Shown here: in pieces, positions 19,430 through 44,191 of the stretch
Position numbering within the stretch: position 1 is the stretch's first letter
Layout: every line of letters begins with the position of its first letter
Source of the DNA: Burkholderiales bacterium
Lineage (GTDB): Bacteria; Pseudomonadota; Gammaproteobacteria; Burkholderiales; Burkholderiaceae_E
Reading direction: 5' to 3'
Assembly (NCBI GenBank): GCA_017307915.1
Contig: JAFKGG010000374.1
Span: forward strand, 1-47,585
Length of the DNA: 47,585 nucleotides
Program-made: the position numbers and the translations under genes
The notes under the pieces: generated by a model
What the model was told of the DNA's origin: nothing
Databases searched by the model: none
Seen by the model: only the letters and a program-made list of their open reading frames with translations

Positions 19430-20431
19430 TCAGGGCAGTGCCACGCCTGCCGGAAAACCCCGGCCGGCAGCGAGGCTGGCGGCATGATGCAGTGCCGAGG
19501 CCATGCCGTCGGCATCGGCCACACCCTTGCCTGCGATGTCGAACGCCGTACCGTGCGCCACCGAGACGCGCAGGCTCGGCTCGCCCAGGACGATGGCGCA
19601 GCTGTCTTCGGAGCGCAGCGTCTTGACCGCGATGTGGCCCTGGTCGTGATACAGCGCCAGTGCGCAGTCGAACTCACCGGCAGCACAGCGCGCAAAGACG
19701 CTATCGGGCGGCAGCGGCCCGACGGCATTCATGCCCTGCTGCCGAGCCGCAAGCACCGCAGGCGCAAGTTCCGCGCCGTCTTCCGGCCCTTTGCAGTGCG
19801 GGTTCAAACCGGCTACGGCAATACTCGGCCGCGCCACGCCCCAGCGCCGCAGCGCCTCGTGCGTCTGCTGCATCAGCGTGAACACGGCATCCCGTTTGAC
19901 CCGATCAAGCGCATCGCGCAAGGGTATGTGATCACTCAGATGCACCACTCGCAGGCGCCCAGCCACCAGCAGCAGATGACTTTGCACGACGCCCGGCAAC
20001 GGTGGCACCTGGGCGACACCGGTTGCCGCCGCGATGGACTCCACGTGAATGGGCCCCTGCACGATCGCATCCACCTCGCCGCGCGACGCAAGCTCCGCGG
20101 CCAGATTGCGCCAGCCGACCACGGCACGCCCGCATTCGGCCGACACCCGTGCCGGCATCACCACGGCAGCAGGCAGCGCGTCCGGTTCGATGACTTCCAG
20201 CAGACCGGCACCGCCAACGGCGTGCGCGACGCCGGCAACCTTGCGCAGCGCGATGTGAAGACCCGACACCTCGGCCGCCATTTCGAGCGCACGCATCGAC
20301 CCGATCGCGACGACACGGGCCTGCGGTGGCCGCCGCACCAGCGCCTTCAGCAATACCTCAGGGCCGATGCCGCAGGGATCGCCCATCACCGCCAGCAGCG
20401 TGGGGCGCTGCCTGTGTTCCAGCGTCTTCAC
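19430..20431 (-). CDS. PdxA/TphB-family dehydrogenase, probable decarboxylating dihydrodiol dehydrogenase (1)
   Basis: A 334-residue PdxA-family protein: GDPCGIGPE at 17-25 and metal-ligand histidines in SDHIPL (His168), LNPHCKGPEDG (His212) and YHDQGHI (His262). PdxA makes a pyridoxal precursor, but the family also holds TphB, which oxidatively decarboxylates the cis-dihydrodiol of terephthalate. Its GTG start at 20431 overlaps the stop of the Rieske beta gene (GTGA), so the trio alpha-beta-PdxA is coupled. Conversion of a carboxylated dihydrodiol to a catechol plus CO2 is therefore the favoured role. A biosynthetic PdxA is unlikely, since the window has three paralogues, each tied to a Rieske pair. 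The family is clear; the reaction is inferred. Confidence 0.85.
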   Translation of the reverse strand: MKTLEHRQRPTLLAVMGDPCGIGPEVLLKALVRRPPQARVVAIGSMRALEMAAEVSGLHIALRKVAGVAHAVGGAGLLEVIEPDALPAAVVMPARVSAECGRAVVGWRNLAAELASRGEVDAIVQGPIHVESIAAATGVAQVPPLPGVVQSHLLLVAGRLRVVHLSDHIPLRDALDRVKRDAVFTLMQQTHEALRRWGVARPSIAVAGLNPHCKGPEDGAELAPAVLAARQQGMNAVGPLPPDSVFARCAAGEFDCALALYHDQGHIAVKTLRSEDSCAIVLGEPSLRVSVAHGTAFDIAGKGVADADGMASALHHAASLAAGRGFPAGVALP

Positions 20432-20922
20432 AGCAGGTAGACGTCCAGGACGACGGGGATCACATCGTTGAGGACCAGCACCTTCTTCTTCTCGATCCAC
20501 CAGCGGCCCGTCGGTGCGCGGCCCAGGACGTATTCGTAGCGGCCCCAGAACGTCGTCGTGGCCGCATCGCGCCAGCAGTTCACCTGCCAATTGGCCTTGA
20601 CCGTGCAACGGCGCCCATCCTCGTCGAACTGGTACTGGATGTTGGTGATGTAGTGGCAGGTGCGCGGCAGCAGTGCGGAGACGACCGAGCGGCCGGAACG
20701 GATGCGAAAGATCCGATCTTCCAGGCCTTGGCGCGAACTGTAGTAGATGAGGGACAGCTCGCTGTCGGGATCGGAGGTCGGCTCATCTTGCTCCCACGCG
20801 GGAACCCAGAATTCGATTTCCGGAGACATCAGGTCGAGCCATTCCTGCCATTGACGGCTGTCGATGAACTCCGCTTCCTTCAGCAGGAGCGCTTCGATTT
20901 CTTCTCGCCATGATGGGGTCAT
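20428..20922 (-). CDS. Rieske ring-hydroxylating oxygenase, beta subunit (pair 2)
   Basis: A 164-residue BenB-like beta subunit. The start ATG at 20922 overlaps the alpha stop (ATGA), in preference to the ATG at 20955. Features include EAEFIDSRQWQEWLDL, the FWVPAW strand, ELSLIYYSS and a GRYEYVLGR strand near the end. It completes an alpha3beta3-type oxygenase with the upstream alpha subunit and is coupled in turn to the PdxA-like gene. Confidence 0.85.
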   Translation of the reverse strand: MTPSWREEIEALLLKEAEFIDSRQWQEWLDLMSPEIEFWVPAWEQDEPTSDPDSELSLIYYSSRQGLEDRIFRIRSGRSVVSALLPRTCHYITNIQYQFDEDGRRCTVKANWQVNCWRDAATTTFWGRYEYVLGRAPTGRWWIEKKKVLVLNDVIPVVLDVYLL

Positions 20923-22250
20923 CGGCCGGCCTCTCGCTGCAATTGCTCGAGCCATGCCCGGTACATGCCCAGATACAGTCCCTCGTCCTGGATCCAGCCG
21001 CCGCAGCTGCGCGGCCGGATACCCAGCTCTTCGGCAAACCGGTCGGGTTCCGTCACCTGGTGCGTCGCACCACGGCTCAGATCACTGGCTCCACCAGCCA
21101 GAAAGCCCCGCTGCGATCGATTGAAAATCTCAAGGTCGTCGGGCGTTGCCATGCCGCTGGCATTGAAGAAGTCTTCGTAGTAACGCAGTCGCGTGCGCCG
21201 CTGCGATGCAGATTCGCCGACGGGGCCGAAGCCAAAACCCACCACTTCCGTGCAGTCGACGCTCACCGGCTGGATCACCCGGATCTGCGTGCTCATCTGA
21301 TCCATGATCATCAGGTTGGGAAAGATGAGGAGGTTGCGCAAGCGACCGACCGCCCAGTTGGCGCGCACCTTGCCCATGCGCTGCTCCAGTTCCGGCAGGT
21401 TCTCGTAATTGAAACGATCCTGCGGATTGTCCCAATCGCGCCAGATCATCAGATGGCCGTGGCCGAGGTCGAAGTAGCCACCGTTCATGTCACGCGGATC
21501 GTGGCGCATCGCCATCGAACCGACCTTCTCGCCGGGAGCGGCGGAACGGCTCCGGTGCTGGATGGTGGCGGAGAAGTTGGCGTGCACGACAGGGGCGTGG
21601 TAGCCGTCGACGGCGTTCTCCGCTTGCAGCTTCCAGTTGCCGCGGTAGGTGTAGGCAGACCGCCCCTTCAGAATTTCCCAGCCAGTGGCCGACTGATCGA
21701 CGAGAAGGTCGATGCACGTGGCCGCATCGCCGAGATGTTGGCGCAGCGGCACAGCGTCGGGATCGAGGCTGCCGAAGATGAAACCACGGTACGACTCGAG
21801 CTGCGGCACCTTGCGCAGGCCGAGGCCTGATTTCTCGAAGCTGGGCGGGTACGCCCCGGCCGATTCGGCGAAGACGCCGACGAGATCGCCGCGACCGTTG
21901 AACGTCCAAGCGTGATAGGGACAGACGATGGCCCGTGCGCTCCCCTTGTGAGCCGTCAGCAACTGCGCGCCACGGTGCGGGCAAGCGTTGAGAAAGCCGC
22001 CGAGGTGGCCTGCATCGTCCCGGTTGACGATGACCGGCTGCCGGCCGATACGGCGCGTGACGTAGCTATGCGGTGCCGGCAGCTCGCTTTCATGAGCGAG
22101 ATAGACCCACGTGCGATGCCATAGCCGTTCCATCTCGAGTTCATAGATCTCGGGGCTGGTATAGACATCACGCCGCAGGCGGGCCAGCCCATCCTGGGCG
22201 ACCGTGAGCACATCCGACAGAGAGGAAAGATCGCTAGCCATTCTATTCAT
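20919..22250 (-). CDS. Rieske ring-hydroxylating oxygenase, alpha subunit, BenA-like (pair 2)
   Basis: A 443-residue protein much like benzoate 1,2-dioxygenase alpha subunits. Rieske ligands are Cys90, His92, Cys110 and His113; the mononuclear Fe site is Asp215 (bridging), His218 and His223 (NWKLQAENAVDGYHAPVVH). The family segments GMATPDDLEIFNRSQRGF and IFGSLDPD also match BenA. It attacks an aromatic carboxylate at the 1,2-position, giving a carboxylated cis-dihydrodiol. Context (PdxA-like dehydrogenase, LigAB, NahD and NahE homologues) suggests a bicyclic aromatic acid rather than benzoate. Redox partners are not encoded here. An in-frame ATG at 22241 is an alternative start. The 70-base gap to the LigB gene shows nothing notable. 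Confidence 0.88.
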   Translation of the reverse strand: MNRMASDLSSLSDVLTVAQDGLARLRRDVYTSPEIYELEMERLWHRTWVYLAHESELPAPHSYVTRRIGRQPVIVNRDDAGHLGGFLNACPHRGAQLLTAHKGSARAIVCPYHAWTFNGRGDLVGVFAESAGAYPPSFEKSGLGLRKVPQLESYRGFIFGSLDPDAVPLRQHLGDAATCIDLLVDQSATGWEILKGRSAYTYRGNWKLQAENAVDGYHAPVVHANFSATIQHRSRSAAPGEKVGSMAMRHDPRDMNGGYFDLGHGHLMIWRDWDNPQDRFNYENLPELEQRMGKVRANWAVGRLRNLLIFPNLMIMDQMSTQIRVIQPVSVDCTEVVGFGFGPVGESASQRRTRLRYYEDFFNASGMATPDDLEIFNRSQRGFLAGGASDLSRGATHQVTEPDRFAEELGIRPRSCGGWIQDEGLYLGMYRAWLEQLQREAGR

Positions 22251-22320: not shown

Positions 22321-23151
22321 TCAGGCGGAAATGCCGACAGCAAGCTCAGTGAAACCGAGGCCGGTGACCCATTCCTCGACCGGCTCGTAGGCAATGACCC
22401 GACTATTCAGATGCGGGACCGCCGCCATCGCCACGATCCAGTTACGGATCTCGAGCGCACCATTACCGGCCTGGTCGACGATGTGCGCGTCGGACAGCAC
22501 AGCCAATGCCTCGACGTCGTTGCGCTCGACGAGCGCCAGCACCTGCCGGTCGAATTCCTCATTGACCCGCCCCATGTCGGCCATCCCGACCCAGTGACTG
22601 ATACCACCCGTGCCCAGCACCACCACGCGCGCATCACCGGGCCAGGCCGCGACCGCGCGTGCGATCATTTCGCCGAGCTGCTTGCACCGCTTGCCCTGGA
22701 TCAGCGGCGTCATCCCGCACGAGATATAGACCGGGATGCACTTCACGCCTGGCGGCACCGCCAGGTGGATGGGCACCATCGTCGAATGATCCAGCGCCAG
22801 CGACTTGGCAACTGCCCAGTCGAAGCCATGCTCGAAGCCGAAGTTCATGATGTGTTCGGCCAGCGGCGTGTCATTCGGGACGGCGGTGCGTCCAATGCGC
22901 AGCCACGGCTCGATCGGCCCTTCGAGATCACCGACGCCGATCAGAATCCGCGGATGGCAGTTCGGCGCGAACATGGCACAGTGGTCGTCGCCGATGACGA
23001 TGACGGTATCGGCCCGCAGGGCCTGAATGCCTTCGCGCACCCGTTCGAATGCCTGCATGACCCTCGCGGCCTCGTCGGGCGGAGCCGCATCGGGTGCGCT
23101 GGTGATGAGGGGATCGTGCGGTACGCAGAAGCCGCCAACGATGCTTGCCAT
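22321..23151 (-). CDS. LigB-type class III extradiol dioxygenase, beta (catalytic) subunit
   Basis: A 276-residue LigB homologue. Predicted Fe ligands are His12 (VPHDP), His57 (GDDHCAMF) and Glu233 (ALEIRNWI), and His185 in GTGGISHW matches the catalytic His of protocatechuate 4,5-dioxygenase. It opens an aromatic diol ring between an OH-bearing carbon and its neighbour. The LigA-like partner gene precedes it by three bases. Because NahD- and NahE-like genes follow in the same operon, the substrate is probably a 1,2-dihydroxynaphthalene-type diol. LigB-like enzymes have been reported in some phenanthrene pathways (PhnC type, from memory). Confidence 0.88.
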   Translation of the reverse strand: MASIVGGFCVPHDPLITSAPDAAPPDEAARVMQAFERVREGIQALRADTVIVIGDDHCAMFAPNCHPRILIGVGDLEGPIEPWLRIGRTAVPNDTPLAEHIMNFGFEHGFDWAVAKSLALDHSTMVPIHLAVPPGVKCIPVYISCGMTPLIQGKRCKQLGEMIARAVAAWPGDARVVVLGTGGISHWVGMADMGRVNEEFDRQVLALVERNDVEALAVLSDAHIVDQAGNGALEIRNWIVAMAAVPHLNSRVIAYEPVEEWVTGLGFTELAVGISA

Positions 23152-23154
23152 GCG

Positions 23155-23409
23155 CTACTCCTTCAGGGCACGAAGATACTCGGGCACGCGATCACGCCCA
23201 TGCAGAGCGGAAAACGCTCTCATCGCCAGCATGTGGTTCAGCCCGCGACGGGTCAGTTCCCGGAAATCAAGTGCACGGATGAGCCCGACCTCGTCGGGCT
23301 CCAGCGGGTAGCGCGCCAAGAATGCGGCCGGTTCCGAGGCATAGGCTTTTGCCACCTCGGGGTTGCCCGCGATTTCATACATGACGCGCTCGACGGTATA
23401 GATGCTCAT
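23155..23409 (-). CDS. LigA-type extradiol dioxygenase, alpha (small) subunit
   Basis: An 84-residue helical protein of the LigA family. The start at 23409 (MSIYTVERVMYEI) overlaps the stop of the isomerase gene as ATGA. It shows the typical PEVAKAYASEPAAFLARYPL and GLNHMLAMRAF segments; Gly-Leu-Asn-His-Met near the C-terminus corresponds to the part that covers the LigB active site. It forms the alpha2beta2 enzyme with the LigB-like protein. The longer frame to 23493 is rejected because it overlaps the isomerase gene by about 90 bases. Confidence 0.85.
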   Translation of the reverse strand: MSIYTVERVMYEIAGNPEVAKAYASEPAAFLARYPLEPDEVGLIRALDFRELTRRGLNHMLAMRAFSALHGRDRVPEYLRALKE

Positions 23410-24020
23410 TGGCCCCTGCCTTGCTCCCGCCCGGCCTGGTTCGCCTCGCGCAGATACGATGTCATCAGCTCGAGACGGTCGTTGCCCCACCACATCTCGC
23501 CTGCCGAAATCATCGTCGGCACGCCGAATACGCCTGCTGCATGCGCGCGCTCATTCGATTCCAGCAGCCTGCGCGCGGCGTCAGGCGAGACAACGAACTG
23601 CATGAACCTGGAAACATCCCAGCCAAGGCCGGCAGCGACACTCGCCAGCACGTCGTCGCTGCTCATGTCACGCCCTCGACCATAAGTTTCCGCCCACAAG
23701 GCCTCGATGTAGCGCTGTGCGTCGCTCTGGTGTTCAGCGAAGAATATGCCCTTGTTCGCGCGCGAAGAATCGTAAGACACCAGCGGTACGAGGGGCACGC
23801 CGTATTGGCGCGCCCAGCGCTGCAGGTCGGTACGCGCGTACTTCAGCTTCAACGGCATATCGCGGGTTGCGGGGCCGGTGTTATTGGCCCTCTGCTTGAG
23901 CCAGTTCAGATCCACAGCGTGGTAGCGGACCTCGTGGCCCAGCGAAGCCGCCAGGCGCGGCAACTGCTGGAATGCCAGATACGCGTAAGGGCTGAGGAAG
24001 TCGAGATAGAAGTCGATCAT
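23406..24020 (-). CDS. 2-Hydroxychromene-2-carboxylate isomerase, NahD-like (kappa-GST fold)
   Basis: A 204-residue DsbA/kappa-glutathione-transferase-fold protein. The N-terminal MIDFYLDFLSPYAYLAF carries Ser10 at the glutathione-binding position of NahD. The GVFGVPTM cis-Pro motif and WWGNDRLELM near the C-terminus are family hallmarks. It interconverts 2-hydroxychromene-2-carboxylate and trans-o-hydroxybenzylidenepyruvate in naphthalene breakdown, using glutathione. Its presence between LigA and the hydratase-aldolase gene is strong evidence that this operon processes a fused bicyclic aromatic. Confidence 0.86.
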   Translation of the reverse strand: MIDFYLDFLSPYAYLAFQQLPRLAASLGHEVRYHAVDLNWLKQRANNTGPATRDMPLKLKYARTDLQRWARQYGVPLVPLVSYDSSRANKGIFFAEHQSDAQRYIEALWAETYGRGRDMSSDDVLASVAAGLGWDVSRFMQFVVSPDAARRLLESNERAHAAGVFGVPTMISAGEMWWGNDRLELMTSYLREANQAGREQGRGQ

Positions 24021-24042
24021 GCATCACTCACGGCGACTTTCA

Positions 24043-25029
24043 CTAGGCCCGAAAGCGGGCAGCATGCTGCGCCCACAGCCGGCCGGCTTCCTCTGCCCCC
24101 TTGACGTAGTCAGCCGGCACGAGATGGTATGGCGGCCGGCATGGGCCGGCCTTCATCCACCCGGCCGCGTTCATCCGCGCCTTTTCCAGGCCAACGTTGT
24201 ACTTGGAGAATTCAGCAAAGTCACCGCGCGGAAAGAGCGGTGCATTCGAAGCGGCGATCGCCTCGGCGACCCTCTTGGTCTCGGACCAATCACCCGAGCG
24301 CTTGGAAGCCGCCACCTGATCTCGCAGCGCAAGCGCGAGTTCAGGTCCGCACACGGCGCCGCCCGTCCAGAAGCCGGTGCATTCTTCGGGTGCCATGCGT
24401 GCAGCAGCGTAGTAATTGTTGTCGGTAGGCAGCAGGCGTATGCGCCCCTTGGTCAGCCGCAAATCGGCCAGCAGTCGGTCGATACCGACATACTTTGCAC
24501 ACACGACCTGCCGGATTTCGGCGACCTGGGCCCAGAACGGACGCGGAAACTCGAACTTGAACGCCTCGGGGTTCGCGTAGATGCAGATGGCGGTATCGGG
24601 GCATGCCTCGGCCACGTCGCGGTAGAACTGCACTGCCGTGGGCAGATCTGCCTTGCACCACATGGGTACGCCCAGCATCGTGCCATCCACGCCGAGCGCA
24701 GCGGCGGCGCGCGTCTGCTCGATCGTGTCACGCGTGTTGAGCGATGTCGTTCCACCGAAGAACGGCACCCTGCCGGCCACGGTCTCGACCACGGTGGCCA
24801 TGAAATCCTGCTTTTCTTTCCAGGTGAGCGTCGCCCCCTCGCCGAAAGTGCCCAGGCTGAGAATGCCGTCGACACCGGATTCGATCAGCTTGTCGACGAC
24901 GCGAGCCGTTTCGTCGAGATCGACTGTATCGGCGGCACGCCAGTCAGAGGCGTTGTCCTTGGCTGGGGTCGGGATGATCGCCCAGGCGCCGCGGATGTCG
25001 GCGGCGCTGAGCAGCTCGCGTCTCCTCAT
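24043..25029 (-). CDS. trans-o-Hydroxybenzylidenepyruvate hydratase-aldolase, NahE/PhdJ-like
   Basis: A 328-residue DapA-family class I aldolase that follows NahE/PhdJ closely ([58 protein letters not shown]). The Schiff-base lysine is Lys179 in CAKYVG and the catalytic Tyr is Tyr151 in IYANPEAF. It hydrates and cleaves the benzylidenepyruvate to an aromatic aldehyde plus pyruvate. The start at 25029 is preferred for its GGGAG box; an ATG at 25053 would be almost at the predicted transcript start. It heads the eight-gene minus-strand operon down to 17735, from a promoter that overlaps a TetR-type operator. Confidence 0.87.
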
Positions 25030-25062
25030 GTCTGCACTCCCGTTCTTCAGCATGATTGACGC

Positions 25063-25093
25063 AGTAGACCATTTTTCGACGTTTACGTCAATT
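25063..25093 (-). promoter_or_regulatory. Promoter with TetR-type operator for the NahE-to-ligase operon
   Basis: On the minus strand: TTGACG (25091-25086), a 17-base spacer and TCTACT (25068-25063). The core GAC-GTTTAC-GTC at 25078-25089 contains the perfect arms GACGT/ACGTC and lies across the promoter, partly over the stop codon of the tetR gene. It is followed on the minus strand by GAAAAA and GTC, as in the three other copies of the motif. Binding would block RNA polymerase. Confidence 0.6.
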
Positions 25094-25903
25094 ATTCTTC
25101 TTCATGCCCGCCTCGAGGTGCCGTTCGAGGTACGCCAGGTCTTCACGCAAAAGGCGGATCGAATCCTGTACATCGCGGGCCCGGTCAGCGCGCGCCTCTG
25201 CACGCAACAAGGCATTCACGCCGATATCCGCGATCGCAGCCGACACCTCTTCCACTTTCATGCGTCCGTCGGGGCGGAACCACCATGCCGTCCAGTTGCA
25301 CATGCCAATGAGGCTGAATGCAGCCACGTCGGCATCTACGTCGCGAAACTTGCCGCCGGAGATACCGCGCTCGATGATGGCCCGGAAATTCTCGAAGATC
25401 ACCCGGCGCGCCGCCTCCGCCTCGGCCACGTGTTCGCGGGGCAGTTCCTTCTCGTTGCGCTCGATCACGCGAAACCCCTGAGGGTGCTCCATGATCAGCG
25501 TCGCATGCTGCCGCACGACCTCGCGCAACGCGGCGACGACATCGAAGTCGGGTCGGGCGATGACGCTGGAGGCGAGCCGCTTGGCTGACAAGGTGACCTC
25601 CTCCGATAGCGCCTGGAGGATGTTTTCCTTCTTCTTGAAGTAGTAGTAGACGGCTGTGCGCGTCAGACCCAGCGATTCTGCGATGTCCTGGATGCTCGTG
25701 CCACCGGTGCCGCGCTCGATGAACAGGGTGACCGCTGCATCCAGAATCGCCCGGCGCAGCACTTCGCCCTTGAATGAGGCCCTGGCACCGGACTCGTTGC
25801 CCTCGGCGGCGGGGTTCTGGGGTGCGCTGGCGCGGCGCGCCGGCGTACGTCGCTGGGTGCTCGTCTTCGTGGCGACGATGGCTCGTTTCGGTTTACGCGG
25901 CAT
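25088..25903 (-). CDS. TetR-family transcriptional regulator
   Basis: A 271-residue regulator. A basic, Pro/Ala-rich N-terminal extension of about 45 residues precedes the HTH ([44 protein letters not shown]), then a helical ligand-binding domain. The first-listed ATG has no good ribosome site, so a start further in is possible. It lies between two divergent catabolic operons and next to two copies of a GAC-N6-GTC plus A-tract site. Two more copies sit at 14004 and 14109. It is therefore the likely repressor of the modules starting at 13955, 14273, 25029 and 26031, released by a substrate or CoA thioester. Confidence 0.87.
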
Positions 25904-25971
25904 GGGTGCGGGATGGTAGTTGACGGACCGATCATACCCATGCGACCGGATCAGTGGCTATCTTCGATCGA

Positions 25972-26001
25972 TTGACTTATACGTCAAAAATACGTCAAAA
26001 T
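25972..26001 (+). promoter_or_regulatory. TetR-type operator upstream of the hydrolase-ALDH operon
   Basis: TTGAC-TTATAC-GTCAA (GAC-N6-GTC core 25974-25985) is followed by an A-tract and another CGTCA. TTGACT (25972) with CAAAAT (25996) could serve as weak -35 and -10 at 18 bases. The start codon of the hydrolase gene is 30 bases downstream. The 18 bases from 25980 differ from the 14115 site at one position. Confidence 0.6.
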
Positions 26002-26030
26002 AGACAAATCAACGCGGGGCCACACCGACC

Positions 26031-27308
26031 ATGCAGACGAGAATCCCTGGCAGCCAGTCACTGCCCGCCCGTACCGTCACGGCGGGCTTCCTGAACACGG
26101 ACTGGAGTCCACGCGACGTCCCGATAGGCACCACAACCCGCAACGTTGTTCTGCGCACCTCCGACGATGCAGCAACCGGGGGGGCACTTTATCTGCCCGC
26201 AGGCCCGCAGCCGAAGACCGTTGTGTGCATCATGCATCCGCGCGAATTCATGGCCTGCCACTATCTGATCCCGGACATCGTGGCCGCCGGCTTTGCCGTC
26301 TGGTCGCAATCGCCGCGCTCGGTCGGCAACGATCTGCGACTCGAACACGAAGTCGCATTGCTGGACGTCACCGCCGGCATGGCGTTTTTGAAGTCCGAGA
26401 GATTCACTCGCATTGTCCTGGTGGGTAACTCCGGGGGTGCGGGACTGTTCTGCCTGTATGCGCAGCAGGCGGCGCTGGCACCGCAGGCGCGAATCCATGT
26501 GACCCCGGCCGGCCGGCCGACGGGCCTGTCCGAGCTGGAAATGCCGACCATCGACGGCTTGGTGCTGCTGGCGCCGCACCCCGGCCAAGGTGCTCTGCTG
26601 CTGAACTGTATCGACCCCTCTGTGACCGACGAGACCGATGTGCTGTCGGTCGATCCTTCGCTGGATCCACTTTCGCCCGCCAATGGCTTCGGCGGCCCTG
26701 AGGGAACCCGCTATTCGGAAGACTTCGTGCAGCGCTATCGCCAGGCCCAGGTGCGTCGCGTGCAACGCATCGACGACGCAGCGCGTGCCATGCTCGCGCG
26801 GCGACGCGAGGCACGCACGCGAGTAAAGGCGGCCGCAGCCGTCGCAAACCCGATCGACCGGCGTATGGCCGCGCATACTCCGATCTTCACCGTGTGGCGT
26901 ACCGATGCCGACCTGCGCTGCTTCGACCGCAGTCTCGACCCTTCCGACCGGAAATACGGTTCACTGTGGGGCAAGGATCCTTTCGCGTCCAACTTCGGTT
27001 CGGTCGGCTTCGCCCGCTTGTGCACACCGGAAAGCTGGCTGTCCACCTGGTCAGGGCTATCGTCGAACGCCGTGCTGGCGAAGACTCTGCCGCCGCTGAC
27101 GATGCCGACCTTGCTGATCGAGTACACCGGCGACCAGGCCTGCTTTCCTTCCGACATCGGCACTCTCCATGCCACCTTGTCCATGCCGGACCGGCAACAC
27201 GTCAGAGTGCGCGGCGACCATCACGGCCGCGCGCTCGACAAGGCCGAAGAGCCCGGACGCTATGTCGCCGGCCGGCACATCCAGAACTGGCTGCAGGAGC
27301 GATTTTGA
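26031..27308 (+). CDS. Alpha/beta-hydrolase, function unassigned
   Basis: A 425-residue alpha/beta-hydrolase, longer than the usual 280. The nucleophile elbow is GNSGG with Ser134; likely acid Asp368 (EYTGDQACFP) and base His397 or His398 (RGDHHG). Early segments HPREFMACHYLIP and SQSPRSVGND are distinctive. The middle 180-300 region is an inserted, Arg/Ala-rich lid. No signal peptide is seen, so it is cytosolic. As first gene of the operon with a VOC protein, flavin monooxygenase and ALDH, it may hydrolyse an ester, lactone, thioester or C-C bond of a pathway intermediate. I cannot name the substrate. Confidence 0.8.
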   Translation: MQTRIPGSQSLPARTVTAGFLNTDWSPRDVPIGTTTRNVVLRTSDDAATGGALYLPAGPQPKTVVCIMHPREFMACHYLIPDIVAAGFAVWSQSPRSVGNDLRLEHEVALLDVTAGMAFLKSERFTRIVLVGNSGGAGLFCLYAQQAALAPQARIHVTPAGRPTGLSELEMPTIDGLVLLAPHPGQGALLLNCIDPSVTDETDVLSVDPSLDPLSPANGFGGPEGTRYSEDFVQRYRQAQVRRVQRIDDAARAMLARRREARTRVKAAAAVANPIDRRMAAHTPIFTVWRTDADLRCFDRSLDPSDRKYGSLWGKDPFASNFGSVGFARLCTPESWLSTWSGLSSNAVLAKTLPPLTMPTLLIEYTGDQACFPSDIGTLHATLSMPDRQHVRVRGDHHGRALDKAEEPGRYVAGRHIQNWLQERF

Positions 27309-37450: not shown

Positions 37451-37452
37451 CT

Positions 37453-38589
37453 TCAATTTCCTTCAAGCAGCTCGTTGGGTAAGTTGCCTTCGGCCGGCCA
37501 TGCCCTGAGCGCCTGCTGCGACGCATACAGATGCACCGTCGCGTCCACGGGTACGCGCGCCGAGCGCGGCACCTGCGTCGACACGTCGCGGCCGCTGCGG
37601 GTGCGAACATCGATTTCGAGGTGGCTGCCGGCATAGACGCAGCCGGTGACCTTGCCCTGCGCCAACAGGACGGCGCCTGACATCGGCTCTTGGCTGACCA
37701 TCAGATCTTCCGGCCTGACCGACACGTAGCCGTCGGTTGCCGCGGTGATCGGCACGGATGCAGCGGTGGCGGGCAGCTCGACGGAGTCACCATCGACCAG
37801 TTGGACGCGCAGGCACTGCGCGGCAGGCTCGATGCGAGCCGGGAACAACACGGTGCTGCCGACGAAATCGCGCACGAACGGCGTGGCCGGCCGCTCGTAG
37901 ATCGATTCGGCATCGGCGCACTGCTCGATGCGCCCGTCGCGCATGACCGCGATGCGGTCGGAGAGTTCGAATGCATCGGCCTGGTCGTGCGTCACGAGGA
38001 TCACGGTCAGCCCGAGTCTGCGCTGTATTGCGCGCAGTTCGATGCGCAACTTCTGGCGCAGGCTGACGTCGAGGTTGCTGAACGGCTCGTCCAGCAGCAG
38101 CAGCGATGGCTCGCAGGCAAGCGCGCGCGCCAGCGCGACCCGTTGCTGTTGCCCGCCGCTGAGCCGCGCGGCACTACGGTCGGCCAGCGCGTCCAGGTGA
38201 ACCAGTTCGAGAATCTGCGCAACGCCGCCGGTCGGGCGGCCGCGAATGCGCATCGGATACGCCACGTTCTCGAAGACGGTCATGTGCGGCCATAGCGCGT
38301 AGCTCTGGAACACCATGCCGATCGATCGATCCTGCGGCGCGACGAAGCGGCGCTGCGCCGGCGACGCCCATACCGCCGTGCCGAAGCGCAGTACGCCGAC
38401 GTCGGGACGTTCAAGGCCCGCCACCATGCGCAGCGTGGTGGTCTTGCCGCAGCCGCTGGCGCCCAGCAGCGAGACGAATTCGCCCTCTGCGATCGTCAGA
38501 TTCAGGTCGTCGACGACCGGCTTGGCACCGAAGTGCTTGCCGATCGCCTCCAGGTACAGTGCGGACAACTCGCTCTCCGTAGACTTCAC
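37453..38589 (-). CDS. ABC transporter ATPase, FbpC/PotA-type with TOBE domain
   Basis: A 378-residue ATPase. Walker A GASGCGKTT is at 43-51, signature LSGGQQQ at 143-149, Walker B LLLDEP at 164-169 and the switch His201. The last 100 residues form a TOBE-type domain (VRPEDLMVS). The start is GTG at 38589, overlapping the permease stop. It belongs to the iron/spermidine/2-aminoethylphosphonate type, but the operon content argues for an aromatic acid as cargo. Confidence 0.88.
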   Translation of the reverse strand: MKSTESELSALYLEAIGKHFGAKPVVDDLNLTIAEGEFVSLLGASGCGKTTTLRMVAGLERPDVGVLRFGTAVWASPAQRRFVAPQDRSIGMVFQSYALWPHMTVFENVAYPMRIRGRPTGGVAQILELVHLDALADRSAARLSGGQQQRVALARALACEPSLLLLDEPFSNLDVSLRQKLRIELRAIQRRLGLTVILVTHDQADAFELSDRIAVMRDGRIEQCADAESIYERPATPFVRDFVGSTVLFPARIEPAAQCLRVQLVDGDSVELPATAASVPITAATDGYVSVRPEDLMVSQEPMSGAVLLAQGKVTGCVYAGSHLEIDVRTRSGRDVSTQVPRSARVPVDATVHLYASQQALRAWPAEGNLPNELLEGN

Positions 38590-40286
38590 GCGCGCGGCCC
38601 GGCGCGCAGGCCGAACGCTCGCGCAACGATCGCGACGATGGCAGTCAATGCCACCACGATGACCCCGACCACGGATGCCGCCTCATAGCGGCCCTCGCTC
38701 AGGAACTCCAACTGCATGATCGACAGCGGCCGGTTGTCGCTGGTGACCAGCAGCGCGATGTGGCCGATGTTGCGCCCGGCGGAAATGAAGCCGACGACGC
38801 CGGTGACGAGCACCGACTGCAGCACCAGCGGCAGCAGGATGCGTGCGACGGTGCTCAGCCGCGTCGCACCCGACAGCGTCGAGGCCTCGGCGAGCTCCAG
38901 GCTGAGCTGGCCGAGCGCGCCGCGAATGAGCTGGGCCGACATCGTCAGCGTGGCCAGACCGATGATGAGCACCAGCGCCATGGTCGTGCCGTATAGCGGC
39001 TGCAGCCAGGGCAAGGACAGCATCATGCCGAGCCAGGCCATCGAGAACAGCACGCCCGGCATGCTCACCGGTATCCACGAGACGGTATCCAGCGCACGCG
39101 CCCAGCGCCCTTGCACGTAGGTCAGCAGGTAAGCGACCAGGAAGCCGACGGTCATCGCGAACAGCGCCACCCCCAGGGCAAGACGCAGCGTGTTGAACAA
39201 GGAATCGACGAACACGGCGTCGCCGATCACCTCGCGCCAGTGCGCGAGCGTCCAGGGCTCGGCGATCTGGAAATATCCGTACATCGTCATGAACGTCGAA
39301 GCCACCAGCGACGCGATCGGCAGCGCAACCAGTATCACCAGCACCGTGCATACCAGCGCGAACAAGGGCCAGCGCGCGCCCCCCAGCGGCAGCAGCCGGC
39401 CTTGCGGCTTGCCGCCAAGCGTGGCGTAGACCCGTTTGGCGACCATGCGCCGCTGCACCGCGGCCAGCAGCAGCATCGCCGCGATCATTGTGACACCCAT
39501 CGCGGCGGCAGCCGAGAACTCGGGCGGATCAGAGCGGATCAACCGATAGATCTGCGTGCTGTAGACGTCGATGCGCTTGGGCGTACCGAGCACCAGCTCG
39601 ATCTCGAACGATTCGAGCGATTTGACGATGCTCAGTACCAGCGTGACCAGCAGCGTCGGCGCCATGACCGGCACCACGATACGACGCAGCATCGACAGCA
39701 CGCGATCGCCGGCGACCATCGCCGCCTCTTCGATGGCACCATCGAGGTTGCGAAACGCCGGCGTCATCAGCATCACCTTGGCCGAAACAGCGGTGGTGAC
39801 GAGATGGGCGAACACGATGCCCCACCAGCTGAAGATGTCGAACGGGCCGGGCCGGCCGAACAGCGCCTGCCATGCGCTGTTGATGACACCGAACGACGGA
39901 TCGAGCATCAGTATCCAGCCCTGCACCACCGCCAGCGGCGGCAGGAAGAAGCTGAGCCAGAAGCCGAATTCGAGCCACTTTCCGGCCGGCAGATCGGTAC
40001 GGGCGATCAACCACGAGATGCCGATCGCGATCGGCATCGATATGCCGACGTAGGCGAGCGTCAGCGCTAGCGTGTTGCCGAGCGCCGACAGCAGGCGCGG
40101 CTCATGAATCAGCTTGATCCAGCCCGAGCCGCTGGCCCCACTCAGCGCGTGGCCCAGGCTGCCGAGCACCAGCAATCCGGCCGGATACAGCACCAGAATG
40201 CCCAGCACCACGGTGACGGCGATGGCGAGTATCGCAAGCGGCTCCATCCAGGCGTGCCGCATGCGCAGTGACAGGGCCTGCATCAT
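38586..40286 (-). CDS. ABC transporter permease, double-domain FbpB-type
   Basis: A 566-residue permease with two tandem BPD-transport domains and about 12 hydrophobic segments. Each half has an EAA-type loop (VAGDRVLSMLRRIVVPVMAP in the first, LSGATRLSTVARILLPLVLQ in the second). Fusion of both halves is typical for Fe3+-type importers. It lies 33 bases after the Rieske alpha stop and is coupled to the ATPase gene. It probably transports the carboxylate bound by the SBP encoded at 42018. Confidence 0.88.
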   Translation of the reverse strand: MMQALSLRMRHAWMEPLAILAIAVTVVLGILVLYPAGLLVLGSLGHALSGASGSGWIKLIHEPRLLSALGNTLALTLAYVGISMPIAIGISWLIARTDLPAGKWLEFGFWLSFFLPPLAVVQGWILMLDPSFGVINSAWQALFGRPGPFDIFSWWGIVFAHLVTTAVSAKVMLMTPAFRNLDGAIEEAAMVAGDRVLSMLRRIVVPVMAPTLLVTLVLSIVKSLESFEIELVLGTPKRIDVYSTQIYRLIRSDPPEFSAAAAMGVTMIAAMLLLAAVQRRMVAKRVYATLGGKPQGRLLPLGGARWPLFALVCTVLVILVALPIASLVASTFMTMYGYFQIAEPWTLAHWREVIGDAVFVDSLFNTLRLALGVALFAMTVGFLVAYLLTYVQGRWARALDTVSWIPVSMPGVLFSMAWLGMMLSLPWLQPLYGTTMALVLIIGLATLTMSAQLIRGALGQLSLELAEASTLSGATRLSTVARILLPLVLQSVLVTGVVGFISAGRNIGHIALLVTSDNRPLSIMQLEFLSEGRYEAASVVGVIVVALTAIVAIVARAFGLRAGPRA

Positions 40287-40319: not shown

Positions 40320-41531
40320 TCAGGCGCGGACATCGCGCAACGCATTCATCCACCAGCGATACAGACCTCGGACGAAAGTCTCGTCGGTGATGTTGCCGCA
40401 AGCCATGACGGCGGCGGCGTCGCCGTTGGGCAGGTGATCGAGCTCACGGTGATAGCCGCGCGAAAAATCGTTCCATGGGGCCGCCTCGGCCATGAAACCA
40501 TTCATGCAGGCCCTGAAGATCTCGATGTCATCGGGGGTGCCGAACCCCATCGGGCCGTAGAAGCGTTCGTACAGGCCGAGCAGGCGGCTTCGTTCCGCCT
40601 CGCCGGCGTCGGCGGAAAAGAAGGCCAATCCTTCGATCTCGGTGCGGTCGACCCGCTGCGGAAAAATCACCCGCAGTTGCGGCGCGGGATTCTCCAGAAT
40701 GACCAGGTTGGGAAAGATGAACAGATGCTGATGCACGTGGCCGTTGGCGTCGGAGGCCAACACGGTGCCGTGGCCGCGCTCCAGCGCGACGCATTGGTCG
40801 GTGGCAAAATCGCGCACCGTCATCTTGCCGGACTCGCCGCGCGCACGCTTGATCTCGAAGAAGCTGCGATGCACCACCGGCAAATGATAGAAGTCGAGTG
40901 CGTTCTCGATCTGCAGCTTCCAGTTGGCGTCGAAACCGTAGCGGGTAGTGCCCGGCACTACGCTCAGGCCCTGGGGCCGTTGATCGCACAGCCGATCGAG
41001 GAAGACACGCGCCTGTCCGAGGTGGGTCTGCAGATCGACGTCGGGCCTGGCAAGACTCACGAAGATGAAGCCGCGGTACGACGCCAGCTCGGCGACCGGC
41101 ACCAAGCCCATCTCGGCGCGAGGAAAGTCGGCGCCATAGCCGTCAGGCCCCGGCAACCCGGCCAGGCTGCCATCGCCCTTGAACGACCAGCCGTGATACG
41201 GGCAGCGGAAATTGTCCGACTGCCCCTGCCGTTCCTTGCACACGACAGCGCCGCGGTGTCGGCAGCGGTTGAAGAAACCGCGCAGTTGCCCATCGCTGCC
41301 GCGCGTGATCAACACCGGTTGCCGGCCCAGGGTCGTCGAGACGAAACTGGCGGCTGCGGGCAACTGGCTTTCATGAGCCGCATAGACCCAGCCATGATGG
41401 AAGAAGCGATCGATCTCGAGCTCGAACACGCCCTGATCGACGTAGGCATCACGATGGACGCGAAAGGCATGCTTGCGCGGATCGTCGTCGACCAGCGCAG
41501 CGACATCGGTGCGTACGGATTGCATGTGCAT
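40320..41531 (-). CDS. Rieske ring-hydroxylating oxygenase, alpha subunit, BenA-like (pair 4)
   Basis: A 403-residue terminal oxygenase. Rieske ligands are Cys90, His92, Cys110 and His113; Fe site Asp213, His216 and His221 (NWKLQIENALDFYHLPVVH). It resembles pair 2 and benzoate dioxygenases (GFGTPDDIEIFRACMNGF). The ATG at 41531 starts one base after the beta stop; a TTG at 41540 overlapping it is possible. The gene is downstream of its beta subunit, the reverse of the common order, and both are between the SBP and permease genes of an ABC importer. That suggests co-expression of uptake and first oxidation. Redox partners are not present. Confidence 0.87.
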   Translation of the reverse strand: MHMQSVRTDVAALVDDDPRKHAFRVHRDAYVDQGVFELEIDRFFHHGWVYAAHESQLPAAASFVSTTLGRQPVLITRGSDGQLRGFFNRCRHRGAVVCKERQGQSDNFRCPYHGWSFKGDGSLAGLPGPDGYGADFPRAEMGLVPVAELASYRGFIFVSLARPDVDLQTHLGQARVFLDRLCDQRPQGLSVVPGTTRYGFDANWKLQIENALDFYHLPVVHRSFFEIKRARGESGKMTVRDFATDQCVALERGHGTVLASDANGHVHQHLFIFPNLVILENPAPQLRVIFPQRVDRTEIEGLAFFSADAGEAERSRLLGLYERFYGPMGFGTPDDIEIFRACMNGFMAEAAPWNDFSRGYHRELDHLPNGDAAAVMACGNITDETFVRGLYRWWMNALRDVRA

Positions 41532-41532
41532 C

Positions 41533-42021
41533 TCAGACAAGAGGTAGATAACCGTACGCGACGGTGTCCTGGATCAGCCGCACTTCCTTGCGCCGGATGC
41601 GCACGCCCGTGCCGGGCGCCTCGGTCAGCTCGAACCGGCTGCGGCCGCTGTGCAGATCGGATTTGCCGTGCGTATGGGTCTGCATCATCCATGCACAGTG
41701 AAAGACGTTGCGGAGCTGGTCGTCGGCCTCGACACCGGCGATCATGCGGGTGACGCGAACCGCCGGCAGCTCGACGTGCGCCGAGCCCGAGTTCATCCGG
41801 GCCACCCAATCGGCCAGCAAGGGCCGATCCATGCGCAGCAGACTGAGCGCCGACGAGGTATCGGGCGCAAAGCCGCCGTCATCGCGACACGCCGGAACCC
41901 AATAGCTGGCATCGTCGGCGTACAGCTCCAGCCATTCCGAAAAACGGCGTTCATCGAGCAGGCGCGCCTCGCGTACCAACAAGCGCGCGGCTGCGTCCAG
42001 CCCAATCGCAGCGGCGCTCAC
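41533..42021 (-). CDS. Rieske ring-hydroxylating oxygenase, beta subunit (pair 4)
   Basis: A 162-residue beta subunit (EARLLDERRFSEWLELYADD, SYWVPA, ALSLLRMDRPLLADWVARM). The GTG at 42021 overlaps the SBP stop (GTGA), showing coupling. The much longer frame upstream overlaps the SBP gene and is rejected. It is the only one of the four pairs where beta comes first. The FHCAWMMQTHTHGKS segment corresponds to the central strand of the beta fold. Confidence 0.82.
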   Translation of the reverse strand: MSAAAIGLDAAARLLVREARLLDERRFSEWLELYADDASYWVPACRDDGGFAPDTSSALSLLRMDRPLLADWVARMNSGSAHVELPAVRVTRMIAGVEADDQLRNVFHCAWMMQTHTHGKSDLHSGRSRFELTEAPGTGVRIRRKEVRLIQDTVAYGYLPLV

Positions 42022-43103
42022 TTCAGGCAATCCTTGGCGAGCTGTAGCGCACGCACACCCTCGGCCGCCGTCTTCTCGCTGCTGAGGTTGTAGGCGCTTG
42101 CCCAGACCTTGGCGGGCACGACCGCCGATTCGTTGCCGGGCTTGACGTCGGTGCGCCGGCTGTTCACCTTGCCGGTTTCGGCCCAGACGGCCTGGGCTTG
42201 CGTGGTGAGCATCCAGTTGACGAACAGCCGGGCGGCGTTCGGGTTGGGCGCCCGGTTCATCAACATGATGTTGCCCCACTTCGACAGAATCGTGCCGCGC
42301 GGATCCTGCACCAGCACCACGTTCTTGCCGATGCCTTGCGCCTGATAGCCGTTCAGCGTGGCCGAGTCGACGCCGATCGCGATCGGATAGGTGCCGCGAA
42401 CGATCCAGTCCACCACCTGCTTCGGCGACTCCGACAGCACAAGCTGCTGGTTCTTCAGCAGTTGGCAGGCCTTGTCTTCACCGAGCACGGCCACCAGTTG
42501 CCGGAAGGTGGTCGACCCCGGGCCGCGTGCGCGCGGGTCGAGAATGGCGATCCGGCCGCGCCATTTCTCGTCGAGCAATTGCTCATAGCCGAAGCCGGCG
42601 CCGACCGCATCGCGATTGACGAACATGCCGCCGGCCAGGTCGGCGGCGAACGCATAGACGTAGCGCTGCTCCTTGTCCATGAAGCCCGCCGCAAAGCCAC
42701 CGGCCCATTGCGCGTTGTCACGCGCACGCGGATCCACCACGACGGGTTCCAGCGGGTCGAACCAGCCGGCCGGGATCTGCCGGGCGAACGTGGTGGAGCT
42801 GACCCCGGTGATGAGAATGTCCCAGACGTATTTGCCGGCGGCGCGCTCGGTCGAGATGCGCGGCTCATAGGCCTGTGGCGGCATGCCGGAGAACTCCACC
42901 TTGATGCCCGGGTAGGCCGCCTCGAAACGCATGACGGCGTCGCGATGCGCCTGTACCGGCGGCCCGGCCACCACCACCCGCCCTTCGGCCTGCGCGGCCT
43001 TGACGAGCGAAGCGAGCTCGGGCGGTTCTGCGGCCGCCACCGCGCCCATACCGAACGCGGACACTGCCGCTCCCGCCAACCAGCGCTTCACGAAAGCCTT
43101 CAT
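42018..43103 (-). CDS. ABC transporter substrate-binding protein, Fe3+/PotD-type fold
   Basis: A 361-residue periplasmic binding protein. The start at 43103 (MKAFVKRWLAGAAVSAFGMG) has a GGAG box and gives a signal peptide ending around AVAAAE. It has the extracellular-binding type 1/6 fold (VVVAGPPVQAHRDAVMRFEAA, WDILITGVSSTTF, LDPRARGPGSTTF). The iron-binding tyrosine pair of FbpA cannot be confirmed. As the first gene of the operon with a Rieske pair, BphC and BphD, it likely binds the aromatic acid used there. The operator at 43165 lies upstream. Confidence 0.86.
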   Translation of the reverse strand: MKAFVKRWLAGAAVSAFGMGAVAAAEPPELASLVKAAQAEGRVVVAGPPVQAHRDAVMRFEAAYPGIKVEFSGMPPQAYEPRISTERAAGKYVWDILITGVSSTTFARQIPAGWFDPLEPVVVDPRARDNAQWAGGFAAGFMDKEQRYVYAFAADLAGGMFVNRDAVGAGFGYEQLLDEKWRGRIAILDPRARGPGSTTFRQLVAVLGEDKACQLLKNQQLVLSESPKQVVDWIVRGTYPIAIGVDSATLNGYQAQGIGKNVVLVQDPRGTILSKWGNIMLMNRAPNPNAARLFVNWMLTTQAQAVWAETGKVNSRRTDVKPGNESAVVPAKVWASAYNLSSEKTAAEGVRALQLAKDCLK

Positions 43104-43175: not shown

Positions 43176-43216
43176 AATAGCCAGGCGTCAATCAAACCGG
43201 ATCCAGGCAAAAGACC

Positions 43217-44191
43217 ATGACCCGACCGCTCATCTGCCTCACGCTGGGTGACATGAATGGCATCGGCCCCGAAGTCGGGCTGCGTGCCGTCGAAGCGCTC
43301 GGCGATGACGCTTCGATCGTCGTCGTCGGCGACAAGCTCGTGGTGGAGCAGGCGGCAAGCCTGGTGGGGTGCCGGCGTGATCTGCACGCGTTCGATCCCG
43401 CGTCGGGCAAGGCACCGCCACCGGGACGCTTGTCGTTCATCGACACCGGCACGGGGGCCGGTCGTTCCCACACCCCGGGGCGCTCGACCCGCGAAGCCGG
43501 CATCGATACGGTCGTGGCGCAAGACATTGCTTTTGCGCTGGCTCGCAAGGGCCAGGTTCAGGCCTCGGTGATGGGCCCGGTCAATGCCGATTCGATCGCG
43601 CTGTCGGGCATGCGCAAGACGGCGATGGACCCGTCCCTGGGGTCGTTCTACCTCTTTCTGGTATCGGGCACCTTGCGGATCGCGCACCTGACCGACCACA
43701 TGCCGCTGGTCGAGGTCTGCACGCGGGAAGTCAAGCAAGCGCGCGTGGCCTTGCTGCTGACCACTCTGCACCGATGCCTCAGCGCGTGGGGCATGCCGCA
43801 TCCCAGAATCGCGGTGGCGGGCCTGAACCCGCACTGCCGCGGCGCGGAAGATCGCGACGAAATCGCACCGGCCGTCTCGCAGGCTCGCGCCGCGGGTATC
43901 GATGCGGTCGGCCCGATCTCACCCGACAGCGTCTTCAGAGAATGCATCGACGGCCGCTTCGACGCCGTCGCGGCGATGTATCACGATCAAGGGCACATCG
44001 CGTTGAAGAGCTGGGGATTTTCCGCCGGCACCACGGTATTCATGGGATTGCCTTTTCTGCACCTGACCGTGGCACATGGCAGCGCCTACGACATCGCCGG
44101 GCAAGGCAAGGCGGATGCGGCGCCGATGATCGCCGCGCTGAAGCTGGCCGATGCGCTAGCTGCGGGAAGAGGATTCGGCGAAGTGTCGTAG
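43217..44191 (+). CDS. PdxA/TphB-family dehydrogenase (3)
   Basis: A 324-residue PdxA-family protein: GDMNGIGPE at 11-19 and metal His candidates His161 (TDHMPL), His206 (LNPHCRGAED) and His256 (YHDQGHI). Closest in motifs to the copy at 19430. It is divergent from the SBP-Rieske pair 4 operon, sharing its promoter region and likely its regulator. It presumably completes that oxygenase as a cis-dihydrodiol dehydrogenase, possibly decarboxylating. The spacer to the LysR gene (44192-44252) shows no obvious terminator. Confidence 0.85.
   Translation: MTRPLICLTLGDMNGIGPEVGLRAVEALGDDASIVVVGDKLVVEQAASLVGCRRDLHAFDPASGKAPPPGRLSFIDTGTGAGRSHTPGRSTREAGIDTVVAQDIAFALARKGQVQASVMGPVNADSIALSGMRKTAMDPSLGSFYLFLVSGTLRIAHLTDHMPLVEVCTREVKQARVALLLTTLHRCLSAWGMPHPRIAVAGLNPHCRGAEDRDEIAPAVSQARAAGIDAVGPISPDSVFRECIDGRFDAVAAMYHDQGHIALKSWGFSAGTTVFMGLPFLHLTVAHGSAYDIAGQGKADAAPMIAALKLADALAAGRGFGEVS

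Follow-up and report, generated by a model that had tools for sequence, protein, structure and literature searches.

The window analysed here, the whole 47,585-bp stretch at positions 1–47585 of contig C149 (JAFKGG010000374.1), belongs to a 6.11-Mb Burkholderiales assembly of 521 contigs (GCA_017307915.1; completeness 94.4%, contamination 4.75%). It contains four pairs of genes for the alpha and beta subunits of Rieske oxygenases and three genes of the PdxA family, as identified by gene prediction and by scanning 40 open reading frames (ORFs) against Pfam. Pairs 2, 3 and 4 are each linked to a PdxA-family gene of their own, and the three linked genes encode two kinds of protein: PdxA-B of module 3 belongs to the clade of TphB, the dehydrogenase of terephthalate breakdown, and PdxA-A and PdxA-C of modules 2 and 4 fall in a second clade, referred to here as clade 2. 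A role for PdxA-A and PdxA-C in aromatic-acid breakdown is a well-supported prediction from sequence comparison. In the scheme that we favour for the three modules, clade 2 probably consists of NAD-dependent, metal-assisted decarboxylating cis-diol-carboxylate dehydrogenases in the position of BenD/XylL.

All four alpha genes match PF00355 and PF00848, all four beta genes match PF00866, and the three PdxA-family genes match PF04166 at 210–227 bits. Pair 2 lies at 22250–20428 on the minus strand, pair 3 at 32035–33758 on the plus strand, and pair 4, in which beta precedes alpha, at approximately 42024–40320 on the minus strand. The GTG start of PdxA-A at 20431, corrected from a longer ORF with a TTG start, overlaps the TGA stop of beta-2 in a GTGA junction. 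PdxA-B begins 10 bp downstream of beta-3, and PdxA-C (ATG at 43217) is divergent from the solute-binding-protein gene at the head of the pair-4 run, their likely start codons being 113 bp apart. The Pfam matches and junctions bear out an initial annotation of this DNA, which had placed PdxA-family genes at 20431, 33769 and 43217 beside pairs 2, 3 and 4, two of them coupled to or following the beta gene and the third divergent. By hand arithmetic, a random gene has a chance of about 2% of lying within 1.7 kb of a beta gene; since this was observed for 3/3 PdxA genes, the linkage is not due to chance.

The genome contains five PF04166 genes, three of them inside the window. Its canonical PdxA is encoded on contig C154 (339 bits, with all E. 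coli substrate positions examined kept), and a fourth non-canonical copy on contig C492 has an alpha/beta pair 2.2–3.6 kb away on the same contig. The genome also has 24 PF00866 genes, compared with 0–6 in 149 other genomes of the same order and none in the same-genus genome G101.

Two kinds of Rieske-linked PdxA protein

All three window proteins score below the cut-off of TIGR00557, the biosynthetic PdxA equivalog (PdxA-A 230, PdxA-B 222 and PdxA-C 219 bits; cut-off 290), and far below that of NF002891, which describes PdxA2, D-threonate/erythronate 4-phosphate dehydrogenase (191, 135 and 168 bits, respectively; cut-off 583). In an alignment of 135 PdxA rows (E. coli numbering), H166, H211 and H266, which we take to be the metal ligands, are present in 135/135 rows together with D247 and K274; the window proteins and 20/20 clade-2 rows are included in this count. 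The differences lie at H136, T137, N283 and R292, which presumably have roles in substrate binding. Of the 135 rows, 107 keep H136; the 28 that lack it are the 20 of clade 2, the 7 of TphB and a single long-branch row. The 107 rows with H136 also retain R292, which is missing from 7/7 TphB and 17/20 clade-2 rows. None of the 27 clade-2 and TphB rows has N283, and T137 varies in 13/107 of the H136-keeping rows. H136, T137 and N283 are absent from all three window proteins, and R292 is retained only in PdxA-A. The loop around position 136 is shortened in clade 2, and its aligned letters are uncertain in that two alignments differ, yet none of them reads HTE. The long-branch row is the second PdxA of a Deltaproteobacteria metagenome-assembled genome (L063:14811–15884); it lies on a very long branch and has no Rieske neighbours in its stretch.

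In the 135-row tree, clade 2 and the TphB clade each have an SH-aLRT support of 100, with H136-keeping rows between them. The seven-row TphB clade comprises PdxA-B, the RHA1, VAI-C, WDL1 and G048 proteins, 4aty and 8zj3. Clade 2 contains PdxA-A, PdxA-C, the C492 copy and proteins from sphingomonad plasmids, Caballeronia, Parvibaculum, N. marinum and genomes of three families; its nearest neighbours are mostly Chloroflexota PdxA proteins (support 84). A 55-row tree recovers the same two clades, and a topology joining them is not rejected by the approximately unbiased (AU) test (p 0.206). PdxA-A and PdxA-C are 31–37% identical to TphB proteins. Their best Protein Data Bank (PDB) matches, by sequence and by structure, are 6e85, 2hi1 and 4jqp, although fold-based best PDB rows do not separate PdxA from TphB function; the AlphaFold model of PdxA-C has a pLDDT of 92.5.

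Sequence comparison establishes two kinds of Rieske-linked PdxA, but not two origins. We dropped independent origin as a firm claim because the joint-clade tree is not rejected and some branches, including that of PdxA-C, are long. The initial annotation had read the three proteins as TphB-like members of one recurring module, and had proposed checking whether they cluster with biosynthetic PdxA and keep its phosphate-site residues. They lie outside biosynthetic PdxA, whose substrate residues they have not kept, and the arrangement recurs elsewhere, so these parts of the interpretation stand; a single TphB-like kind is ruled out for PdxA-A and PdxA-C by the tree and the residues, and only PdxA-B is a TphB. 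Joint inheritance of the Rieske alpha subunit and PdxA was also considered and is not seen, as the clade-2-linked alphas require three changes on the alpha tree.

HTE is replaced by HME or HQE in thirteen PdxA proteins that branch near clade 2. They come from Chloroflexota (L021, L022, L024–L026, L028, L029, L031, L033, L038, L046 and L072) and OM182 (L065). No Rieske pair was found in the flanking DNA of these genes, which contains one weak alpha-like match, at L038.

Gene content of the three modules

Module 3 has the order alpha-beta-PdxA on the plus strand. Its alpha subunit (32035–33270) is of the terephthalate 1,2-dioxygenase type (TphA2; 707.5 bits to 7q04 and 707.8 bits to 7vju), followed by a TphA3-type beta subunit (33267–33758; PF00866, 48.8 bits) and PdxA-B (33769–34740; 382 bits to 8zj3 and 284 bits to 4aty). 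The alpha subunit is 78% identical to the Variovorax VAI-C protein, 67% to that of Rhodococcus jostii RHA1 and 60% to that of WDL1, and groups with them at a support of 100/100 in the alpha tree. S244 and R392 (alpha-3 numbering), which we take to be the residues holding the second carboxylate in the terephthalate dioxygenase structure, are common to four TphA2-type proteins and absent from three salicylate-type ones. Solved references for TphB and TphA2 are PDB 4aty, 8zj3–8zj7 and 7q04, and the title of entry 8zj3 is terephthalate cis-dihydrodiol dehydrogenase/decarboxylase. The RHA1 and VAI-C modules share the alpha-beta-PdxA order with module 3, and the PdxA proteins are 50–70% identical. 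A divergent gene for an IclR-family regulator (31109–31873, minus strand; PF01614, 131 bits) occupies the same position as in RHA1. In RHA1 and VAI-C a reductase gene comes after PdxA; none is seen in module 3. Among five TphB-clade genes with flanking DNA, the beta gene is directly upstream in 4/5; the fifth, in G048 (L150), has no beta gene within its 1.5-kb flank, and the nearest listed PF00866 match is about 7 kb away. A TphB-type match is present in 2/369 genomes of the class. The pairing of TphB with TphA is established, and on sequence grounds module 3 is an ordinary terephthalate module whose substrate is very probably terephthalate; for this module, the initial description of the substrates as not yet defined no longer holds.

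Module 2 lies on the minus strand. PdxA-A (19430–20431; 333 aa; PF04166, 225.6 bits) follows beta-2 (20428–20955; PF00866, 125.7 bits) and alpha-2 (20919–22250), a benzoate/toluate-dioxygenase-type subunit by the alpha tree. Upstream of these are genes for a LigB-type (class III) extradiol dioxygenase (22321–23151; PF02900, 126.9 bits), which scores 91 bits to gallate dioxygenase 3wku and 79 bits to protocatechuate 4,5-dioxygenase 1b4u, for a protein that we presume to be of the NahD type from its family and its neighbour (23406–24020; PF01323, 155.6 bits), and for that neighbour, a NahE-type trans-o-hydroxybenzylidenepyruvate hydratase-aldolase (24043–25053; 479 bits to 9frt and 477 bits to 6dao). 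An AMP-binding acyl/aryl-acid ligase gene (17735–19408; PF00501, 174 bits; TIGR02275, 314 bits, below cut-off) ends the run. A single transcript for module 2 is not certain because of a 254-bp gap ahead of the LigB gene.

The alpha-2 subunit scores 472 bits against the benzoate 1,2-dioxygenase model TIGR03229 (BenA), below its cut-off of 781, and lies inside the BenA/XylX lineage, in an 11-row clade with BenA and XylX proteins (support 99/99). It is 44–51% identical to its 40 best plasmid matches listed. BenD and XylL are short-chain dehydrogenases/reductases (SDRs). No BenD-type SDR gene was found beside the module-2 oxygenase genes, where PdxA-A occupies that place, in contrast to BenABCD/XylXYZL, and no BenC was found among the scanned window ORFs. 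The C492 locus (L011) carries genes for LigB, PdxA, LysR, TctC, alpha and beta; its products are 63% (LigB), 62% (alpha), 58% (beta) and 50% (PdxA) identical to those of module 2, and its alpha subunit belongs to the same BenA/XylX lineage. Seven plasmid regions with relatives of alpha-2 or alpha-4 were inspected, one record being without annotation: 4/7 have a BenD-type or short-chain dehydrogenase gene downstream (one of the four from the alpha-4 search), 1/7, from a sphingomonad, has PdxA, and in 1/7, from Sphingopyxis, the opposite strand carries an SDR gene at a distance of about 3.4 kb. Because SDR-linked and clade-2-linked alphas are interleaved within the BenA/XylX lineage and the plasmid neighbours vary, one type of dehydrogenase appears to have been replaced by the other.

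Module 4 comprises PdxA-C (43217–44191, plus strand; PF04166, 226.8 bits) and a divergent minus-strand run. The run is headed by a periplasmic solute-binding protein (42018–43103; PF01547, 59.4 bits), with its start placed at the signal-peptide Met. It continues with beta-4 (41533–42024, start approximate; PF00866, 71.1 bits on the ORF at 41533–42279), a divergent alpha-4 (40320–41540; PF00355 and PF00848; TIGR03229, 259 bits), an ABC transporter permease (38586–40286; PF00528, 39.6 bits) and ATPase (37453–38589; PF00005, 115.7 bits), and an alpha/beta hydrolase of the HsaD/BphD meta-cleavage-product type (36620–37456; NF045632 HsaD, 307 bits, and TIGR03343 BphD, 241 bits, both below cut-off). 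It ends with a BphC-type VOC extradiol dioxygenase (35748–36599, start approximate; 129.8 bits to 1han, and 190 bits to TIGR03213 on a longer ORF, below cut-off). The alpha-4 subunit has no well-supported position in the alpha tree, and its best plasmid match (35.5%) is a sphingomonad xylX product that is itself PdxA-linked. An ortho- or meta-substituted benzoate may be the substrate of module 4, because the BphC/BphD pair suits a 3-substituted catechol. Beside PdxA-C, the gene for a LysR-type regulator (44253–45406, minus strand) is split across two overlapping frames, with the helix-turn-helix part at 44927–45406 and the substrate domain at 44253–45023, as in a broken gene or an assembly error.

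Both motifs expected of a catalytically competent Rieske alpha subunit, CxH-x(14-20)-CxxH and DxxHx4-5H, are present in alpha-2, alpha-3 and alpha-4. No reductase gene was identified among the scanned window ORFs; TphA1-like proteins with 33–41% identity are encoded on four other contigs of the genome. Naphthalene-type genes surround the modules (23406–31060 and 45364–46485) and include, besides the nahE- and nahD-type genes, a VOC dioxygenase ORF (26894–28255) and genes for a flavin monooxygenase (28298–29530), an aldehyde dehydrogenase (29588–31060) and a gentisate-dioxygenase-like cupin (45364–46485). Pair 1 (14920–16729, plus strand; alpha then beta) is not PdxA-linked. Its alpha gene (14920–16254) lies in a run of SDR (14273–15073, adjoining the pair), alpha, beta and TctC binding protein; the protein retains the first motif, has Glu in place of the Asp of the second, and has its nearest kin in the sampled set at loci L138 and L023 (N. 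marinum).

Recurrence beside Rieske genes and known counterparts

The neighbourhoods of 22 clade-2 genes were inspected; loci L006, L009 and L020 are near copies of one another, and L155 entered through the alpha search, the same record also being among the PdxA matches. A Rieske beta gene lies within 1.5 kb of 11/22 clade-2 genes, and both alpha and beta lie within 4 kb of 12/22 and within 6 kb of 14/22. The 107 other PdxA genes have no beta match and one weak alpha-like match, with at least 3 kb of DNA on both sides in only 52/107. The recurrence that the initial annotation had expected is thus found, the alpha-beta-PdxA arrangement being present in other genomes and plasmids. A scan of named genomes, used for the tree and for controls and not as a survey, gave 80 loci among the matches listed; a Rieske pair is present at three of these (L019, L020 and L023), and most of the others encode other PdxA proteins.

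A clade-2 profile built from 8 sequences was searched against 369 genomes of the class, with up to 5 candidates scored per genome. Among the matches listed, 14 genes from 6 genomes spanning four families scored above 400 bits and all others below 295 bits; among 398 genomes drawn from the phylum, matches above 400 bits occur only in this genome. PF00866 counts across the 369 genomes are lower bounds, since up to 10 candidates were scored per genome. At least five PF00866 genes were counted in 7/369 genomes, six of which are the clade-2 carriers and the seventh, G240, has five such genes and no clade 2; among the 362 genomes with fewer, clade 2 was found in none. The association has a Fisher p of 2e-12, for a threshold chosen after the counts had been seen and with kinship uncorrected.

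Among the closest known counterparts is the sphingomonad xylX-xylY-PdxA segment (pNL1, pLA1, pF2, S. fuliginis p1 and Sphingobium PNB orf183_9), whose PdxA proteins belong to the same clade as PdxA-A and PdxA-C. As in the window, PdxA is next to or overlaps a beta gene whose Rieske pair is of the benzoate type, with nahD-type and extradiol genes nearby. The sphingomonad proteins are 43–46% identical to PdxA-A and PdxA-C, the paired alpha lineages differ, and the segment continues with a second Rieske pair and a catechol 2,3-dioxygenase gene, whereas the window has LigB or BphC types. The available text on Sphingobium PNB describes xylX-xylY-orf183_9 as overlapping genes, lists a 4-hydroxythreonine-4-phosphate dehydrogenase among genes of undeterminable role, and reports that XylXY in E. 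coli gave catechols, naming only oxygenase and electron-transfer genes (PMC4048848). Judging from the pNL1 gene order, orf183_9 is probably that dehydrogenase gene. In the accessible part of the pLA1 report, the PdxA-type protein was detected in proteomes, and the plasmid also carries the SDR gene xylL (PMC3946609). A gene of the 4-hydroxythreonine-4-phosphate-dehydrogenase type beside benzoate dioxygenase genes appears in excerpts of PMC5591006, and public records label clade-2 genes '4-hydroxythreonine-4-phosphate dehydrogenase PdxA'.

Other Rieske types are also represented. The Cycloclasticus phn/polycyclic aromatic hydrocarbon (PAH) cluster (CYCPU_RS0111430–RS0111495) has a PdxA-annotated gene beside an alpha/beta pair, and the available text annotates this gene, which is very highly expressed, as a dihydrodiol dehydrogenase (PMC11099662). 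At locus L138 of genome G491, PdxA is divergent from the alpha/beta pair as in module 4, and the gene order fits the Cycloclasticus cluster; its alpha subunits are of the AndAc/salicylate type, unlike those of the window modules. On Caballeronia plasmid p3 (L008:1335–11277), an 11-gene run forms a nearly complete candidate pathway, with genes for a hydrolase, a VOC dioxygenase, a class II aldolase, the lower pathway, Rieske alpha/beta, a ferredoxin, a clade-2 PdxA and a flavin oxidoreductase. The o-phthalate dihydrodiol dehydrogenase OpaB is BenD-like in the accessible part of PMC6362003, and the available portions of PMC10989954 and PMC4849787 leave the reading unchanged. No isophthalate iphB papers, and no earlier recognition of clade 2 as its own family, of its residue pattern or of its tie to Rieske-rich genomes, were found in the literature searched.

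Proposed reaction, alternatives and implications

We propose that modules 2, 3 and 4 are ring-hydroxylation modules in which the Rieske alpha/beta oxygenase would hydroxylate an aromatic acid to a cis-diol that includes the ring carbon bearing the carboxyl group. Using NAD+ and a divalent metal that it binds, the dedicated PdxA-family enzyme would then oxidise the 1,2-diol-1-carboxylate, and the resulting beta-keto acid would lose CO2 to give a catechol; electrons would presumably be supplied in trans. For TphB, the available text describes a Zn-dependent oxidation that passes through a transient ketone and releases CO2 (PMC13040137). Module 3 would convert terephthalate to protocatechuate through TphA2A3 and TphB, and modules 2 and 4 would act on other benzoate-type acids, with clade-2 PdxA in the BenD/XylL place. 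The module-2 catechol would probably pass to the LigB-type dioxygenase of the same run, next to the nahD/nahE-type genes, and the module-4 catechol to the BphC-type dioxygenase and the HsaD/BphD-type hydrolase of its own run. From fold, residues and gene order we infer decarboxylation by modules 2 and 4, and their substrates are likewise predicted. Both modules share with TphB the fold, the metal, Asp and Lys positions, the loss of H136 and the Rieske alpha/beta neighbours; PdxA-A and PdxA-C differ from it in that the GHTE loop is shortened and a stretch after NPHA deleted, and they are accompanied by different Rieske types and ring-cleavage genes.

Several observations weigh against this scheme. 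Doubt attaches mainly to decarboxylation by clade 2, which may instead carry out plain dihydrodiol oxidation, and to the reason why some copies lie away from Rieske genes. Eight of the 22 clade-2 genes are without an alpha and beta pair within 6 kb, 3/22 have alpha only within that distance, and 5/22 have no Rieske match in the flanking DNA, three of them lying close to the end of a contig or on a short one. In family f199 (three copies each in G298, G409 and G503), a beta gene lies within 1.5 kb in 0/9 and within 6 kb in 2/9, and some copies have unrelated neighbours, such as chaperonin and carbamoyltransferase genes. Clade 2 is closer to PdxA2/PdxA than to TphB by phmmer score and structure alignment, and N283 also varies in 26/107 of the other rows. 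Because the assembly is fragmented and has 4.75% contamination, C492 and other beta genes may not all share one organism. PdxA may not be needed in sphingomonads, since pLA1 also has xylL and XylXY gave catechols with no PdxA named. No assay of any clade-2 PdxA was found in the literature searched, which was mostly open-access.

The alternative that survives best, which we nevertheless consider unlikely, is that clade-2 proteins are non-decarboxylating dehydrogenases converting plain cis-dihydrodiols, from polycyclic hydrocarbons or ring-substituted acids, to catechols. The nahD/nahE-type genes heading the module-2 run would fit such a role, as would the Caballeronia run, where a class II aldolase/adducin gene comes behind the one for ring cleavage; its product is presumably akin to the CmtD decarboxylase of the p-cumate path, in which the carboxylate is kept past ring cleavage. 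Conservation of the metal, Asp and Lys positions common to PdxA and TphB in every clade-2 row argues for decarboxylation instead, as do the alpha-2 and xylX oxygenases, which are of the benzoate 1,2-dioxygenase type. Benzoate 1,2-dioxygenase gives a product in which one of the diol carbons bears the carboxylate. The dehydrogenase role in Cycloclasticus comes from annotation, with no assay given in the available text (PMC11099662).

An improbable alternative is that an SDR encoded elsewhere is the working dehydrogenase and that the PdxA-family genes, as accessories or relics, have a minor or lost role. The genome has 21 SDR matches to a BenD query, the best (44%) on contig C134, and the sphingomonad observations on xylL and XylXY point the same way. 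The window copies have intact reading frames and conserved catalytic positions, and all four non-canonical copies in this one assembly have an alpha/beta pair within 4 kb. The detection of the pLA1 protein and the high transcription of the Cycloclasticus gene, as given in the accessible parts of the two reports, also argue against relics (PMC3946609; PMC11099662). A function of PdxA-A and PdxA-C in sugar-acid or vitamin B6 metabolism (as PdxA2 or PdxA), with the Rieske genes nearby by coincidence or because of some other pathway, would agree with their best PDB matches but is very improbable given the sub-cut-off TIGR00557 and NF002891 scores, the loss of H136 where 6e85 keeps HTE-N-R, the lack of a DUF1537 kinase among the 40 scanned window ORFs, the canonical PdxA already on C154, and the Rieske linkage and co-occurrence.

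We return to the decarboxylating scheme for its wider implications. Module 3 is of a type already known and marks one more probable degrader of terephthalate, a PET monomer, and on sequence evidence modules 2 and 4 appear to be a variant of the known arrangement with a little-studied PdxA branch. More tentatively, and with rather less confidence than in the scheme itself, clade 2 could be a second family of Rieske-coupled dehydrogenases that decarboxylate dihydrodiol-carboxylates. This family would have evolved from PdxA without sharing the origin of TphB, would have lost the same substrate residues and would repeatedly have displaced the SDR BenD/XylL beside benzoate-type and other Rieske oxygenases; the present genome would have three such copies in addition to TphB. 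If the decarboxylating scheme is right, a residue test (no H136, with the metal and Lys positions kept) combined with clade membership would separate aromatic PdxA from vitamin B6 PdxA. In Rieske clusters of the benzoate and PAH types without an SDR, clade 2 would account for the second step, and it would serve as a genomic marker of Rieske-rich aromatic degraders.

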